From positions 2,790,001 to 2,854,000 of the forward strand of contig NZ_CP049786.1 of the NCBI RefSeq assembly GCF_011290365.1: a DNA stretch of 64,000 nucleotides. Direction: 5' to 3'. A program made the position numbers and the translations under genes. This DNA is from Leclercia sp. 29361 (GTDB taxonomy: Bacteria > Pseudomonadota > Gammaproteobacteria > Enterobacterales > Enterobacteriaceae). The notes under the pieces were generated by a model that searched no databases, was not told the origin of the DNA, and saw nothing but the letters and a program-made list of their open reading frames with translations. Below, piece after piece: positions 6,335 through 51,327 of the stretch; within the stretch, counting starts at the first letter, position 1; each line of letters opens with the position of its first letter.

Positions 6335-6742
6335 ATGACGAAGCACCTGAACCCTGCCTCTGAATCCCGCGGCGATCGCGATCTGATCGCCATCAGAGCT
6401 GCGATGAACATTCTGGAAAAATGGGGCTGCACCACAGAGCAGCAGCAGAACATACTGCAACTCTCCAGAGCGGCGCTCTACAAGTACCGGCATAACGATA
6501 CGAAGACGGCCTCGTTAAGTCACGATCAGCTAACCCGGATCAGCTACCTGCTGAATATGCACTCGGCGCTGCGCATCGTGTTCAGTAACCCCGAGAACGT
6601 CTACGGGTTTATGACCATGGAGAACCACAATGCTTACTTTAATGGGGCAACGCCGTTATCCCTGATTGAGGATGGCGAGTTCGGCAATCTGCATGAAGTC
6701 GCCCGGCGTGTTGATGTCCTGCGCGGAGGCCTGGCCGGATGA
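6335..6742 (+). CDS. Antitoxin of a RES-type system (Xre/MbcA/ParS family)
   Basis: A 135-residue protein with an N-terminal helix-turn-helix region (TTEQQQNILQLSRAALYKYR) and a C-terminal antitoxin/toxin-binding part ending in a weakly conserved DUF2384-like block (TPLSLIEDGEFGNLHEVARRVD). It overlaps the following RES toxin gene by 4 nt (ATGA), the usual coupling for this type II module. It should neutralise the toxin by direct binding and repress its own promoter, which must lie in the 104 nt upstream. RBS GAGGGGCATCCT precedes the ATG. Confidence 0.85.
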   Translation: MTKHLNPASESRGDRDLIAIRAAMNILEKWGCTTEQQQNILQLSRAALYKYRHNDTKTASLSHDQLTRISYLLNMHSALRIVFSNPENVYGFMTMENHNAYFNGATPLSLIEDGEFGNLHEVARRVDVLRGGLAG

Positions 6743-7428
6743 TCCATCCTGAGATCCCCAGAACAGCGCTAATCCCCTTCAAAGGCTATCGCCTGCTGCA
6801 TACCAAGTACCCGGCCATTTACGTGTTTGAGGACGTTGCCACCCCGGAGGAGTTTGACGTTCTCTACGACATCCAGAAACTAACCAACCCGCGCCTGTCG
6901 CAGGAGGTGGGGAATCTGGATCTGCTGCCGCGTGAAGAGTGGGTGCTAGGGATCCGAGGCGCACATTATGCAATGGCGGCCTTTACCCATATCAACCCCG
7001 ACGGCAGCCGCTTTTCGAATGGCGATTTTGGTGTGTATTACCTCGGGGACAGCCAGGAAACGGCGCTGGCCGAAGTTGTTTACCACTGTCAGCGCTACTG
7101 GCGGAACGTGCCTGAACTGAAGTTCGAGCGCTTCGAATATCGCTGCCTGGAAACAGAGCTGAGCAGTTCGTCATTTGTCGATATCACCGGCCTGCCGGAT
7201 ACCCATCCCTGGTATCACCCTACTGACTACCACGAACCGCAACAGCTGGGCGCCAGCCTGCGTGTGGCGGGTGAAACCGGCGTAACGTACCGCTCGGTTC
7301 GTCACCGGGACGGTATCTGCTGGGCGCTGTTAACGCCGAAAACTATCACCAGCATCATTCAGACCTCCCTGCATCAGATTATCTGGAATAAAGGCATGGT
7401 CAGCATCGGGCTGGTCACCCCCACCTGA
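6739..7428 (+). CDS. RES-domain toxin (NAD+-degrading family)
   Basis: A 229-residue RES-family protein. The family arginine, glutamate and serine can be placed: GSRFSNGDFGVYYLGDSQETALAEV (given here in two parts: GSRFSNGDFGVYYLGD then SQETALAEV) at about residues 90-114, and YRSVRHRDGICWALLTPK near residue 180. Known RES toxins cleave NAD+ by phosphorolysis or hydrolysis and stop growth until the antitoxin is restored. It is translated with the antitoxin through the ATGA overlap. At 229 residues it is longer than the compact mycobacterial MbcT type and closer to the proteobacterial branch. Confidence 0.85.
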   Translation: MIHPEIPRTALIPFKGYRLLHTKYPAIYVFEDVATPEEFDVLYDIQKLTNPRLSQEVGNLDLLPREEWVLGIRGAHYAMAAFTHINPDGSRFSNGDFGVYYLGDSQETALAEVVYHCQRYWRNVPELKFERFEYRCLETELSSSSFVDITGLPDTHPWYHPTDYHEPQQLGASLRVAGETGVTYRSVRHRDGICWALLTPKTITSIIQTSLHQIIWNKGMVSIGLVTPT

Positions 7429-7839: not shown

Positions 7840-8046
7840 ATGCTTTTCTCCTGGTGCGTGGTTGCCTGTATTCACTGTATCACTGGATCGCCAACTTTGT
7901 AGGCCAGGCAAACGAAGCGCCCCGGCATTGCCGTTTCTGGAAAGCTCCTCGCAAAGCCTCAAGCAAGGTTATGTAATTCGGGATTACCTCTTTTTTTCAG
8001 AGGATCGGCGTCGTAGAGTGACGGCGTTGCGGCACATCCGCAATCG

Positions 8047-8063
8047 GGCGTAGGAACCCGTAC
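8047..8063 (+). promoter_or_regulatory. seqA-like target site of the C4/CI antisense RNA
   Basis: GTAGGAACCCGTAC in this stretch is complementary, apart from a one-base bulge, to the loop sequence TACGGCATTCCTAC (8165-8178) of the structured RNA downstream. A further ACGAC match follows in both. In phage P4 the leader segment upstream of the CI RNA (seqA) pairs with the RNA (seqB) and forces early transcription termination. Confidence 0.55.
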
Positions 8064-8118
8064 TTTCACGACACGACAATATTTTTTGTCGCGACAGCGC
8101 TCATCCCGTTAAAATCAC

Positions 8119-8194
8119 GGTGGCGCTGGCGGAGCAGCCGCAAGGCTGGCCGTTTTTGTCGTGTACGGCATTCCTACCTCCGTCAGCGCTACCA
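8119..8194 (+). ncRNA. C4-type (P4 CI-like) antisense RNA
   Basis: A 76-nt segment closed by a 16-bp stem. GGTGGCGCTGGCGGAG (8119-8134) pairs with CTCCGTCAGCGCTACC (8179-8194), with only two G-U pairs. Inside are a CAGCC-GCAA-GGCTG hairpin (8135-8148) and an exposed single-stranded segment complementary to a site upstream (8047-8063) and, over seven bases (GTAGGAA), to one downstream (8204-8210). This is the layout of the P1/P7 C4 RNA and the 69-nt CI RNA of satellite phage P4, which act as immunity factors by antisense pairing with their own leader. No other P4 genes were recognised, so it looks like a retained module. Confidence 0.72.
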
Positions 8195-8200
8195 CTCATG

Positions 8201-8217
8201 AGCGTAGGAACTCATGG
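8201..8217 (+). promoter_or_regulatory. seqC-like target site overlapping a ribosome-binding site
   Basis: AGCGTAGGAACTCATGG repeats the GTAGGAA core of the upstream site and can pair with the antisense RNA loop over seven bases. The AGGA inside it sits 8 nt before an in-frame ATG at 8218 and 4 nt before the ATG of a seven-codon reading frame (8214-8237). Pairing would therefore hide a translation start, as described for C4 control in P1. Confidence 0.45.
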
Positions 8218-8250
8218 ATGGTGAGGAGATTTTTTAAAAAGGAACACGAC

Positions 8251-8706
8251 ATGACAACTCTCTTTAATCTGTCTTATACCCCATCTGACGAAAGCGTTAT
8301 TCAACAACTGATTGCCTTGCCCCTTCCGGCTGATGCGGATCTGTTTGAGGCCGCCGAACACTGCGCCGCGCTGGTGAGCGTGCTGGTTGAAACTGATGAC
8401 GCAGCTGCATTCACTGCGCTCTGTGAGCGTCTGCTGCATGGCCTGCGCCAGCTGAGAGAACTCTGCGATGCCGATCTGCCACCGTACCTGGTCGCACAGC
8501 TGATCGTTGGGGAAAAGTTCACCTCCTGCGTACCGGAGTGCTGGCAGGAAACGGCGTTACAGGTTGACTATGCGCTGGCGTTAACGCAGGCGCTGCTGGC
8601 AGGCACGCTGCCGCCGAGCGTGGCGAAGGAATTGACGGGTTTGCTGCATGATATGGTGTGGCTGTTGGCGGAGTTCGTGAAGGAGCCGTATATTACGGCG
8701 CACTAA
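8251..8706 (+). CDS. Orphan protein behind a C4-type antisense leader (P4-like satellite remnant)
   Basis: A 151-residue acidic protein without recognised domains, signal peptide or membrane segment; it is Leu/Ala-rich and probably all-helical (residues 20-145). I chose the ATG at 8251 because AAAAAGGAACACGAC gives a good ribosome site. An in-frame ATG at 8218 would add eleven residues (MVRRFFKKEHD) and uses the AGGA within the antisense target site. In P4-like elements the genes after the CI region encode small toxic or regulatory proteins, but I do not recognise this one. It is followed by a strong terminator. Confidence 0.7.
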   Translation: MTTLFNLSYTPSDESVIQQLIALPLPADADLFEAAEHCAALVSVLVETDDAAAFTALCERLLHGLRQLRELCDADLPPYLVAQLIVGEKFTSCVPECWQETALQVDYALALTQALLAGTLPPSVAKELTGLLHDMVWLLAEFVKEPYITAH

Positions 8707-8745
8707 GTGTTGCTGACAGTTGATTAACGCTTTTACATAAGAGAT

Positions 8746-8772
8746 AACCCGGTCAAAAAAGACCGGGTTTTT
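8746..8772 (+). terminator. Rho-independent terminator after the antisense-controlled gene
   Basis: The stem AACCCGGTC / GACCGGGTT (9 bp) with an AAAAAA loop is followed by TTT. It closes the C4-leader transcription unit. Confidence 0.85.
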
Positions 8773-8955
8773 AGTTATTATACGGTTCAATTAACGCCAT
8801 GCCCCCGTATTTACAAGTTAAGAACAAATGGATGTCTGTTAAGAGCGAGGAGCACACATTGACCATTCTGTTCAACGTCTTCAGACTCAGCCCTTAACTC
8901 TCAGTTCTTCGCGCGTTGGACCTTGAAAGTAGATGCTACCTTTATGGTAAAGATC

Positions 8956-8999: not shown

Positions 9000-9740
9000 T
9001 TAGACAATCCCAACTTTTACAAATGGACTTCCGTGACTGCGTGTTTTTTTGATTAATTTACCCACATACAAGTCTCTAACTTCTTTAGCTGCAATTCGGC
9101 CAACAAACTCGGAGCGATTGGTATCCATAGTAATGTTTAAATCACGCGTAAAGTATTGTTGAGAGCCAGCCTTCACCCAGCACTGTATTTCATAGACCTC
9201 CATGACAAGCCCGCCATAAGTTGCGTAAGCAAATTTAAGTCTCTCGTCTTTAGGGATATTTGCCCAAATGCCGCGAGTGGACTCATATAGCTCCAATGCG
9301 CTCATACCAGACTTGTATGTACTGTTTAAAAGAAAGGCGAGCCCGGCATGTTCACATGCGATTTCGGTTTCTTCTTTGAGTAGCAAGTGCTGGAGTTCAT
9401 CAAGCGTGATGCGTCCCATAAGAGAGCTACTTCCTCGAACTTTATTAGTAAGTTCTCCCACACCTAAGAGATCGATACATGTTGCCTCAACAAGTTTGGC
9501 CGTTGATTCATCCATTCCATGGCGAAGAATATCGATACCCAAGTTTTTTCTTTCTAAAAGCTCTTTGATCCGCTCAGATTTCGGAGATTCATCAGGACGT
9601 TTGATATGGTCAAGACAGCGATCGGACTTCCCCTTTCCAATGTAAAAAGGCTTCTTGAACTCATCCTCCTTGTCATAAAAGGCATATACATAGTACTTAG
9701 CCAAATCCAAAGATTTTGTATATTTTGATAAATCCCTCAA
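9000..9740 (-). CDS. GIY-YIG nuclease-domain protein (LEM-3-like)
   Basis: A 246-residue protein. Residues 16-100 form a GIY-YIG domain: YYVYAFYD (16-23), PFYIGKGKSDR (31-41, YIG equivalent and conserved Arg), a likely catalytic Glu85 in KLVEATCIDLL, and LTNKVRG (97-103), as in the LEM-3/ANKLE1-like branch. The C-terminal 145 residues match no family I know and could supply DNA binding. The start is a TTG preceded by AAGGAAATAAACA; no ATG lies close by. Base composition and codons are clearly A+T-richer than the neighbours, which suggests recent transfer. Function may be DNA cleavage in defence or mobility; this is inference. Confidence 0.75.
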   Translation of the reverse strand: MRDLSKYTKSLDLAKYYVYAFYDKEDEFKKPFYIGKGKSDRCLDHIKRPDESPKSERIKELLERKNLGIDILRHGMDESTAKLVEATCIDLLGVGELTNKVRGSSSLMGRITLDELQHLLLKEETEIACEHAGLAFLLNSTYKSGMSALELYESTRGIWANIPKDERLKFAYATYGGLVMEVYEIQCWVKAGSQQYFTRDLNITMDTNRSEFVGRIAAKEVRDLYVGKLIKKTRSHGSPFVKVGIV

Positions 9741-49591: not shown

Positions 49592-49622
49592 CATAAAAAA
49601 ACGCCGGCCAGGCCAGCGTTTT
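49592..49622 (-). terminator. fadD terminator that doubles as the rnd U-tract leader
   Basis: On the minus strand AACGCTGGC pairs with GCCGGCGTT around CTG and is followed by seven T. It ends the fadD transcript. In E. coli a similar GC stem plus a run of eight U lies in the rnd 5' UTR and is needed for rnd translation. Confidence 0.75.
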
Positions 49623-49641
49623 GGGGTGACTAACACGAAGC

Positions 49642-51327
49642 TCAGGCTTTATTGTCTACTTTGGCGCGCGCTTCGTCACGTAATTCTCGTCGTAATATCT
49701 TCCCGACGTTCGATTTTGGCAGTTCGTCGCGAAACTCCACCAGTTTCGGCACTTTGTAGCCGGTCAGCTGGCGACGACAGAAGGTAATCAGCGCCTCTTC
49801 GCTGAGGTCAGGATCTTTTTTCACCACAAAGATTTTGACCGTTTCACCGCTGCTGCCTGCCGGAACGCCTACCGCGGCCACTTCCAGTACGCCGTTGTGC
49901 TGCATCACCACGTCTTCAATCTCGTTCGGATAGACGTTGAACCCGGAGACCAGGATCATGTCTTTTTTACGATCGACGATGCGCAGGAAACCTTCGTCAT
50001 CCATCACCGCGATGTCACCGGTGTGCAGCCAGCCATCTTTGATGATTTCGTCGGTGGCGTCCGGACGCTGCCAGTAGCCCAGCATCACCTGCGGCCCTCT
50101 CACGCACAGTTCGCCCGGTTCGCCATGCGGCACTTCGTTATCGTTGTCATCCACCAGTTTGGCTTCGGTTGAGGGCACCGGCAGGCCGATGCTGCCGCTG
50201 TGGTAGTCGATGTCGTGCGGGTTGACGCTCACCAGCGGAGCGCACTCGGTCAGGCCATAGCCCTCCAGCAGATACTGCCCGGTGAGTTTGACCCAGCGCT
50301 CGGCCACCGCCTGCTGTACCGGCATCCCACCGCCCGCCGACAGATGCAGGGTCGAGAAGTCGAGTTGCTGGAACTCTTTGTTGTTCAGCAGGGCGTTGAA
50401 GAGGGTATTCACCCCGGTCATGGCGGTAAACGGATATTTCGCCAGCTCTTTCACCAGGCCGGGAATATCCCGCGGGTTGGTGATGAGCACGTTCTGGCCG
50501 CCAAGCTCGATAAACAGCAGGCAGTTCATGGTCAGGGCGAAGATGTGGTAGAGCGGCAGCGCGGTGATCACCAGCTCTTTGCCGCGATGCAGCAGCGGGC
50601 CGTAGGTGGCATTGACCTGTTCGAGGTTCGCCAGCATGTTGCGGTGGGTGAGCATCGCCCCTTTCGCCACCCCGGTGGTGCCACCGGTGTACTGCAGGAA
50701 GGCCAGATCCTGCGGCACCACTTCCGGTTTAACGTACTGCATCCGGTAGCCGTTGTGCAGCGCCCGGCGGAAGGAGATGGCGTCCGGCAGGTGATATTTC
50801 GGCACCAGACGTTTGACGTATTTAACAACAAAGTTAACCAGCGTCCCTTTGGCGGTGGAGAGCTGATCGCCCATCCGCGTCAGAATGACGTGTTTGACCT
50901 GGGTCTTGTCGACCACTTTTTCCAGGGTGTGCGCGAAGTTGGAGACAATCACAATCGCCGCCGCACCGCTGTCGTTCAGCTGGTGCTCCAGCTCGCGCGG
51001 GGTATAGAGCGGGTTGACGTTAACCACGATCATCCCGGCGCGCAGGATACCAAACAGCGCCACCGGATACTGCAGCAGGTTAGGCATCATCAGCGCTACC
51101 CGGTCACCTTTCTTCAGGCCTAAACCCTGTTGCAGGTAGGCCGCAAATGCCCGGCTGCGCTCTTCCAGCTTACGGAAGGTCATCACCTCACCCATGTTCA
51201 CAAACGCAGGCTGATCGGCGTAGCGCGTCACGGAGTTTTCAAACAGTTCAACCAGGGATTGATAACGGTCAGGATTTATCTCTGCAGGCACATCCGCAGG
51301 ATAACGGTTAAGCCAAACCTTCTTCAC
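49642..51327 (-). CDS. fadD: Long-chain fatty acid-CoA ligase
   Basis: A 561-residue acyl-CoA synthetase, same length as in E. coli. It traps incoming long-chain fatty acids as CoA thioesters at the inner membrane. AMP-binding motifs are [18 protein letters not shown] (about 213-230) and [14 protein letters not shown]. The FACS motif region [25 protein letters not shown] is split here as [15 protein letters not shown] and [11 protein letters not shown] use the GTG at 51327 (reading [10 protein letters not shown]) with AGAGGTGATGTA in front. A FadR operator lies upstream. Confidence 0.97.

Follow-up and report, generated by a model that had tools for sequence, protein, structure and literature searches.

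What does an antisense RNA of the phage P4 immunity type do in a chromosomal region that lacks the genes of a P4 satellite? The question is raised by a short segment of the chromosome of Leclercia sp. 29361 (contig NZ_CP049786.1), lying within a stretch of 64,000 nucleotides that was analysed as a whole and is referred to here as the window. The original prediction described the segment as a stand-alone C4/P4-CI module that could either give immunity to incoming P4-type satellites or silence the gene behind it. We propose that positions 7938-8774 are probably a self-contained regulated gene, with a CRP-S promoter and a C4 RNA that would repress its own open reading frame (ORF). The elements of this putative gene, in window coordinates, are as follows.

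7938-7953, minus strand: CRP-S (Sxy-dependent CRP) site, TGCGAGGAGCTTTCCA on the minus strand, matching TGCGA-N6-TTCCA at 10/10 positions
8013-8064, plus strand: c4-a1b1-like target leader (seqA-like), RF03163, 39.9 bits, E 2.4e-8 (search of the whole genome)
8014-8019, plus strand: putative -10 hexamer TAGAGT, just 5' of the leader hairpin, from comparison by eye with P4 and the paralogues
8048-8060, plus strand: target a1, GCGTAGGAACCCG, of which GTAGGAA (8050-8056) pairs exactly with a'
8071-8079, plus strand: target b1, ACACGACAA, exact 9-nt complement of b'
8086-8115, plus strand: possible second promoter TTGTCG-18-TAAAAT, a consensus match directly before the C4 RNA
8113-8199, plus strand: C4 antisense RNA, RF01695, supported by score, fold and covariation
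8156-8164, plus strand: b' recognition loop, TTGTCGTGT, complementary to ACACGACAA (8071-8079) and ACACGACA (8244-8251)
8171-8178, plus strand: a' recognition segment, TTCCTACC, of which TTCCTAC (8171-8177) is complementary to GTAGGAA
8202-8213, plus strand: target a2, GCGTAGGAACTC, of which GTAGGAA (8204-8210) pairs exactly with a'
8236-8243, plus strand: likely Shine-Dalgarno sequence, AAAAAGGA, preceding b2 and with it making up the seqC-like site
8244-8251, plus strand: target b2 (part of the seqC-like site), ACACGACA, 3' of the likely Shine-Dalgarno sequence and overlapping the ATG
8251-8706, plus strand: ORF of 151 amino acids (protein P0001), predicted to form a helical bundle and without match to a known family
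8746-8774, plus strand: intrinsic terminator after the ORF, a stem of 9 pairs and a T run

The Rfam covariance model RF01695 matches the RNA at 8113-8199 on the plus strand with 61.5 bits (E 1.8e-9), above its gathering score of 45, and the fold closes with a 16-bp stem formed by 8119-8134 and 8178-8193. Complementarity is bipartite; a' and b' each have one target copy upstream and one downstream, with b2 at the ribosome site. The identification as a C4/P4-CI type RNA with the seqA-seqB-seqC plan is thereby borne out, as is the claim that its loop is complementary both to the leader and to a downstream site of ribosome binding. The originally proposed 16-bp stem likewise stands, while the length of 76 nt has to be corrected to 75 nt, one base being lost from the 3' end: the processed RNA is predicted to span approximately 8119-8193 and to begin with GGT, which sits at the position expected for RNase P cleavage (the RF01695 product is about 77 nt). 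The original prediction had staked its case on the covariance search and on conservation of the stem in homologues; the score lies above threshold, and in 56 distinct homologues, aligned by fitting to the structure, 98.7% of stem cells are paired and 20 of 27 pairs show compensatory change. None of 500 shuffles of these 56 rows, in the same structure-fitted alignment, equalled the observed stem covariation. A C4 model built from ten C4s recovered 62 C4s in 69 loci.

Upstream of all eight C4 loci of this genome there are matches to RF03163 (c4-a1b1), each below the gathering score (at the window, 39.9 bits for a threshold of 46.7), and we therefore call the leader C4-target-like rather than a member of that family. 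The minimum-energy fold of the whole window leader contains the stem AGCGC/GCGCT (8096-8100 with 8123-8127), pairs a1 with a' and leaves the C4 closing stem open, which agrees with the earlier suggestion of an alternative, attenuator-like stem that excludes the closing stem. As to promoters, P4 has TATAGT, by eye, at a place like that of TAGAGT, and the consensus promoter scan did not pick up TAGAGT at 8014-8019. TTGTCG-18-TAAAAT is one of three consensus promoter matches in the stretch, against 0.7 in shuffles, and a -10-like hexamer directly precedes the C4 in 40 of 64 distinct loci, compared to 28% in shuffles.

The original prediction missed that the genome has seven further modules of this kind, that an ORF family is conserved along with the RNA and that a CRP-S site lies in the promoter region. 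The genome (4.94 Mb, one contig) contains eight C4 matches, all above the gathering score and separated by 66 kb or more, each followed by a member of the ORF family (seven full-length, one truncated at 95 amino acids); a ninth place holds an ORF fragment alone. C4 was detected in 36 of 60 sampled genomes, this one included, with 33 of these hits among the 36 genomes of the same genus, and in none of 14 control genomes. The ORF family is present in 59 of 60 genomes of the genus; in a sample drawn across the family Enterobacteriaceae, 52 of 198 genomes had a match, and 38 of the 154 genera were represented. Among the ORFs listed for genomes G000-G035, 65 of 84 have a C4 at 48-65 nt upstream; conversely, 50 of 115 C4s are without an ORF among those listed. 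In one small contig (L226) two C4 RNAs stand in tandem, at 7057-7144 and 7993-8077, about 0.85 kb apart. RefSeq annotates an "ash family protein" where L159 has its leader and C4 RNA (8070-8234), and this name and "Icd-like protein" recur under the E. coli matches; such annotations may represent RNA read as protein.

Each copy carries its own recognition code. The 60 distinct C4 sequences compared, including those of P4 and one E. coli phage-plasmid, contain 45 distinct b' and 38 distinct a' stretches, and in each of four tests, pairing a' or b' with the leader or downstream target, the mean longest exact complement to the RNA's own target exceeded all 2000 permutations. The own target was best or tied for b' in 34/60 (leader) and 35/60 (downstream), and for a' in 45/60 downstream and 16/60 in the leader, the last test being blurred because a' classes are shared. 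Within the Leclercia genome all eight b' loops differ and there are five a' classes, so that the copies should mostly regulate themselves. When duplex energies were calculated for these eight and P4, 7 of 9 C4 RNAs had their own leader as the best partner and 8 of 9 their own downstream site. The exceptions are L005 and L006, whose C4 RNAs bind a foreign leader slightly more strongly (for L006, -28.9 with the window leader against -28.6 with its own), and L004, whose C4 RNA favours the downstream site of another locus; insulation between copies is therefore incomplete.

The protein behind the RNA matched no Pfam, NCBIfam or PADLOC family and gave one PHROG match at E 0.17. Its structure is predicted to be a helical bundle (mean pLDDT 80.8, from 30 sequences), for which structure comparison returned no informative match. 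By eye, the first residues resemble those of the first ORF after C4 in P4, which we take to be kil and whose place the P0001 ORF occupies; beyond these residues the two do not align. The ORF is conserved as a protein: over 65 homologous pairs with dS of 0.1-0.8, drawn from 26 rows (L144, L148 and L155 were left out), the median dN/dS is 0.155 (range 0.07-0.33), and purifying selection is concluded on this ground.

What would control the transcript is suggested by an alignment of the eight upstream regions, which yielded a common motif, TTTGCGAG-NNNN-CTTCCAGAA, in either orientation. We identify it as CRP-S because its half sites are those of the E. coli CRP-S, TGCGA-N6-TTCCA, which the available text of a published study describes as not palindromic and as working in either orientation (PMC6728893). 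The window site at 7938-7953 is the only exact match in 64 kb and lies upstream of the promoter, as in E. coli-type CRP-S promoters. Five modules of this genome score 10/10, two 9/10 (L078, L080) and one 8/10 (L082). In a set of 30 named relatives (Enterobacter, Lelliottia, Leclercia, Silvania and one unassigned Enterobacteriaceae), 29 have a 10/10 site within 450 nt, these loci being close kin rather than independent cases; among 200 scrambled motifs, the average number of such loci was 0.01 and the highest was 1. Scrambled motifs reach 9/10 in 0.62 of the 30 loci on average and in 8 at most, and isolated 9/10 sites can therefore be chance. The same caution applies genome-wide, since a loose motif with up to one mismatch occurs at 37 sites against 15 for a backward control, so that single sites elsewhere may be fortuitous. 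CRP-S-like motifs were seen near a hok/sok locus (Rfam sok), near a HigB toxin pair and, with one mismatch, near a RelE-like pair whose Pfam score is below the cut-off (L208, L210 and L215 in this genome); possibly more toxin-antitoxin loci belong to the Sxy regulon, or these are chance matches. The link between CRP-S and a C4 module is new here.

How does the module relate to satellites? That it stands alone, with no P4 gene nearby, was claimed from the outset and is confirmed by a comparison of 13 P4 proteins with the window at E 0.1, in which the sole match was 24 amino acids of orf88 (E 0.086) inside a RES gene. The integrase, alpha primase-helicase and sid or psu that mark a P4-type satellite have no convincing match around the immunity region. 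Within 6 kb of the eight loci, matches at E 0.1 comprised the eta/kil region, the same orf88 segment and a sid match at L077 (E 0.061), and at E 1e-3 neither integrase nor alpha was found within 5-6 kb (less at contig ends) of 38 loci from this genome and the named relatives. At E 1e-5 the genome has a single alpha-like match, which lies about 136 kb away and shows 31% likeness across 264 residues. Satellites and stand-alone modules are distinct, as P4 genes and the ORF family never occur together in the 29 C4 loci L017-L045: 12 have at least three P4 genes (L017-L020, L022-L027, L029, L030), two are present in L028 and one in L035, and the ORF family is absent from all 14 of these loci. It is found without any P4 gene in 13 loci, and the last two lack both.

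Relatives of the module are also found in integrated islands. Sequence resembling the phage-plasmid module, in part or in full, is present in 2893 of 5426 E. coli genomes, 1048 of them with at least 80%, and of four such regions that were read, three adjoin tyrosine integrases at tRNA genes, some of these integrases being broken, and the fourth an integrase remnant at a tRNA gene. We built a tree set of 66 loci, comprising the window, six of the seven other loci of this genome (L078 was too short), 16 of the 30 named loci, 38 loci of the family sample (one from the same genus), four from E. coli and one from a Pantoea plasmid. A CRP-S site of at least 9/10 is absent from all 12 integrase-linked loci and present in 33 of the 54 others, 24 of them at 10/10 (Fisher p 1.4e-4, kinship being ignored); the E. 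coli locus with the integrase remnant was counted among the 54, and 21 of the 54 modules have neither CRP-S nor integrase. In this quick tree with long branches, CRP-S loci fall in several separate groups, requiring 10 changes against a shuffled mean of 22, and the site points one way in the group of the window and the other way in that of L079. The module is a relative of the switch that governs lysogeny in P4-like satellites and tRNA-integrated islands, in which CRP-S was not found.

A second variant lacks the RNA. No C4 is listed for 19 of the 84 listed ORFs, and 18 of these 19 run without an internal stop. Two further searches at 12 of the 19 did not find a C4; a c4-a1b1-like target is retained in nine of the 12. 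The C4-less loci L134, L135, L137, L138, L142-L144, L148-L150, L152 and L154 keep a CRP-S site and a single target copy. The distance from CRP-S to the ORF is 300-308 nt in 15 modules with C4 and 151-156 nt in 14 without, as would be expected if the C4 segment alone had been lost. In these loci TTAGCAT in the leader (TTGGCAT in L149) can pair with ATGCTAA just 5' of the start codon, and L139 has GAGCA and TGCTC at a like position. It looks as if a cis hairpin may have taken the place of C4 here; predicted folds are mixed, many lacking it.

The surroundings of the window module point to rearrangement. In relatives, beyond the flank of the window site, L188 and L190 carry partial or broken copies of the ORF, L192 has it in two frames and L193 intact, and transporter-like genes (named by eye) lie between a SnoaL gene and the module. 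Compared with window positions 7840-8706, two leader copies flank several genes in L188, L192 and L193; the window has one leader copy and those genes are absent, an arrangement that looks like a deletion by recombination between two leader copies. On the upstream side, a RES toxin and Xre/ParS-type antitoxin pair (6335-7428, plus strand) adjoins the SnoaL-like gene. On the other side a GIY-YIG protein (9000-9740, minus strand; PADLOC PD-T4-3 at E 3.8e-23, phrog_5356 at E 3e-78) adjoins the module, and two relatives have other genes there, including by eye a probable DNA methyltransferase and ATPases; this flank is perhaps a defence hotspot. An sroD sRNA (81.4 bits) lies at 49595-49683 on the minus strand of the window.

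Several other readings have to be weighed against a gene repressed by its own antisense RNA. If the C4 RNA silenced incoming P4-type satellites or islands in trans, the ORF being secondary, its plan should be that of P4, as it is, and its a' classes GTAGGAA, GTGAGAA and TTGGCGT are indeed common to satellites of the genus, some of which share a' with C4s of this genome. However, among 12 satellites (P4 and 11 of the genus; L028, L030 and L035, with some P4 genes, were left out) none is matched at both its own a and b sites by any of the eight C4s: where a' is shared, the match at the satellite's own b site is missing. A wider comparison of 75 module C4s, stand-alone and island-linked with duplicates included, against the 12 satellites gave 7 of 900 combinations with at least 7 nt for both segments, three of which involve C4s of this genome (L001, L002); in none of the seven does the b match fall on the satellite's own b site. 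What b' follows instead is the site of ribosome binding in front of its own ORF. The proposed immunity against P4-type satellites is therefore not supported, and we consider a stand-alone immunity function highly improbable. We see a limited possibility, and on balance doubt, that the pair is a type I-like toxin-antitoxin system, in which the ORF would be a growth inhibitor in place of what is presumably kil and the C4 RNA its antitoxin. The position of the ORF, its kil-like first residues and the different recognition code of each copy favour this view, whereas the intact C4-less ORFs are the wrong way round for a toxin with a single antitoxin and weaken it. Usual type I toxins are small and hydrophobic, and a predicted helical bundle of 151 amino acids is unlike them. 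A cis hairpin hiding the ribosome site in some C4-less leaders may in turn blunt the C4-less objection.

That the modules are decaying control-region remains of lost satellites or islands, devoid of present function, seems very unlikely to us. Broken or partly deleted ORFs at this site (L188, L190, L192) and the truncated and fragmentary copies of this genome are what decay would leave, but the low dN/dS, the compensatory changes in the RNA stem, the CRP-S site in 29 of 30 named loci and an ORF family carried by 59 of 60 genomes of the genus are not. A further alternative concerns the promoter, where the motif might be the operator of another regulator, or be conserved with the promoter for some other reason, and not be a working CRP-S. 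All support for CRP-S is drawn from sequence, and the motif also occurs at genes not known as competence genes, e.g. between two genes read by eye as sdaB and xni. Against this, the half sites, in either orientation, are those reported in the accessible part of the E. coli work (PMC6728893), and in this genome the same motif, as a positive control, precedes the ATG of sxy/tfoX by 136 nt and comM/yifB by 127 nt. In 16 dissimilar sites, whose search-motif positions are invariant by construction because the sites were selected by the motif, spacer conservation averages 0.76 against 0.60 in the flanks and two bases outside the motif are invariant. We therefore judge another operator to be improbable.

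Among known systems, P4 CI RNA immunity (seqA, cI/seqB, seqC, kil) shares with our module a C4-type RNA between two target copies and the order of isrK-like leader, C4, second target copy and first ORF directly behind. It differs in that the loci described here are without convincing int, alpha, sid, psu or other P4 genes within 6 kb, and have CRP-S, eight copies, varied recognition sequences and an ORF that aligns only at its first residues. The C4 RNA of phages P1 and P7 (RF01695) is alike in its score above gathering, its a'/b' recognition and the GGT at the predicted RNase P site, whereas the gene regulated here is an uncharacterised ORF. The nearest precedent that we found for many C4-like RNAs in one genome is Group 1 of Acinetobacter baumannii, for which the available text describes 21 sRNAs of one genome that resemble each other, most of them showing C4 features and variable a' loops, with expression and apparent processing seen by RNA-seq; unlike here, that text reports no common target ORF or CRP-S site (PMC5320573). 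In Haemophilus influenzae, toxTA is likewise a horizontally acquired unit under Sxy/CRP control, as far as the accessible text describes it, and differs as a pair of protein toxin and protein antitoxin that involves no antisense RNA (PMC6957337).

We thus return to the gene repressed by its own C4 RNA, and propose the following mechanism. Because its promoter carries a CRP-S site, transcription is probably switched on by cAMP-CRP together with the competence activator Sxy. The transcript would run through the C4-target-like leader (a1, b1), the C4 RNA, the second copy at the ribosome site (a2, b2) and the 151-amino-acid ORF, and from it RNase P probably releases the C4 RNA as a molecule of about 75 nt with GGT at its 5' end, in analogy to what the available text of PMC5320573 describes for P1/P7. 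Through a' and b' this RNA would pair with the leader and ribosome site of its own mRNA, blocking translation of the ORF and probably favouring early termination. Silencing of the gene behind it, the second role originally suggested, is the likely job of the RNA. Expression of the ORF would then need strong induction in a competence-like state, and we would guess that its product is a competent-state effector that acts on growth or on incoming DNA.

Our best reading is that a lysogeny switch of satellites or islands was probably taken into the competence regulon, with the C4 RNA repressing its own ORF. More tentatively, and as a scenario that we find plausible without leaning towards it, such a switch joined the Sxy/CRP regulon of the Enterobacteriaceae, probably at least twice, as separate clades carry CRP-S in opposite orientation (unless by inversion), and multiplied into antisense-gated effectors with varied codes that would be released only in the DNA-uptake state, their targets then being the cell itself or incoming DNA. 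If true, this would demonstrate the use of a satellite immunity module by the host. By sequence the modules are tied to the competence regulators, which also occur in enterics that are not known to transform. Common enteric bacteria thus offer a natural set of paralogous antisense switches whose specificity code can be read, and those members of the ORF family that belong to the Enterobacter group may be counted as candidates for the Sxy regulon.
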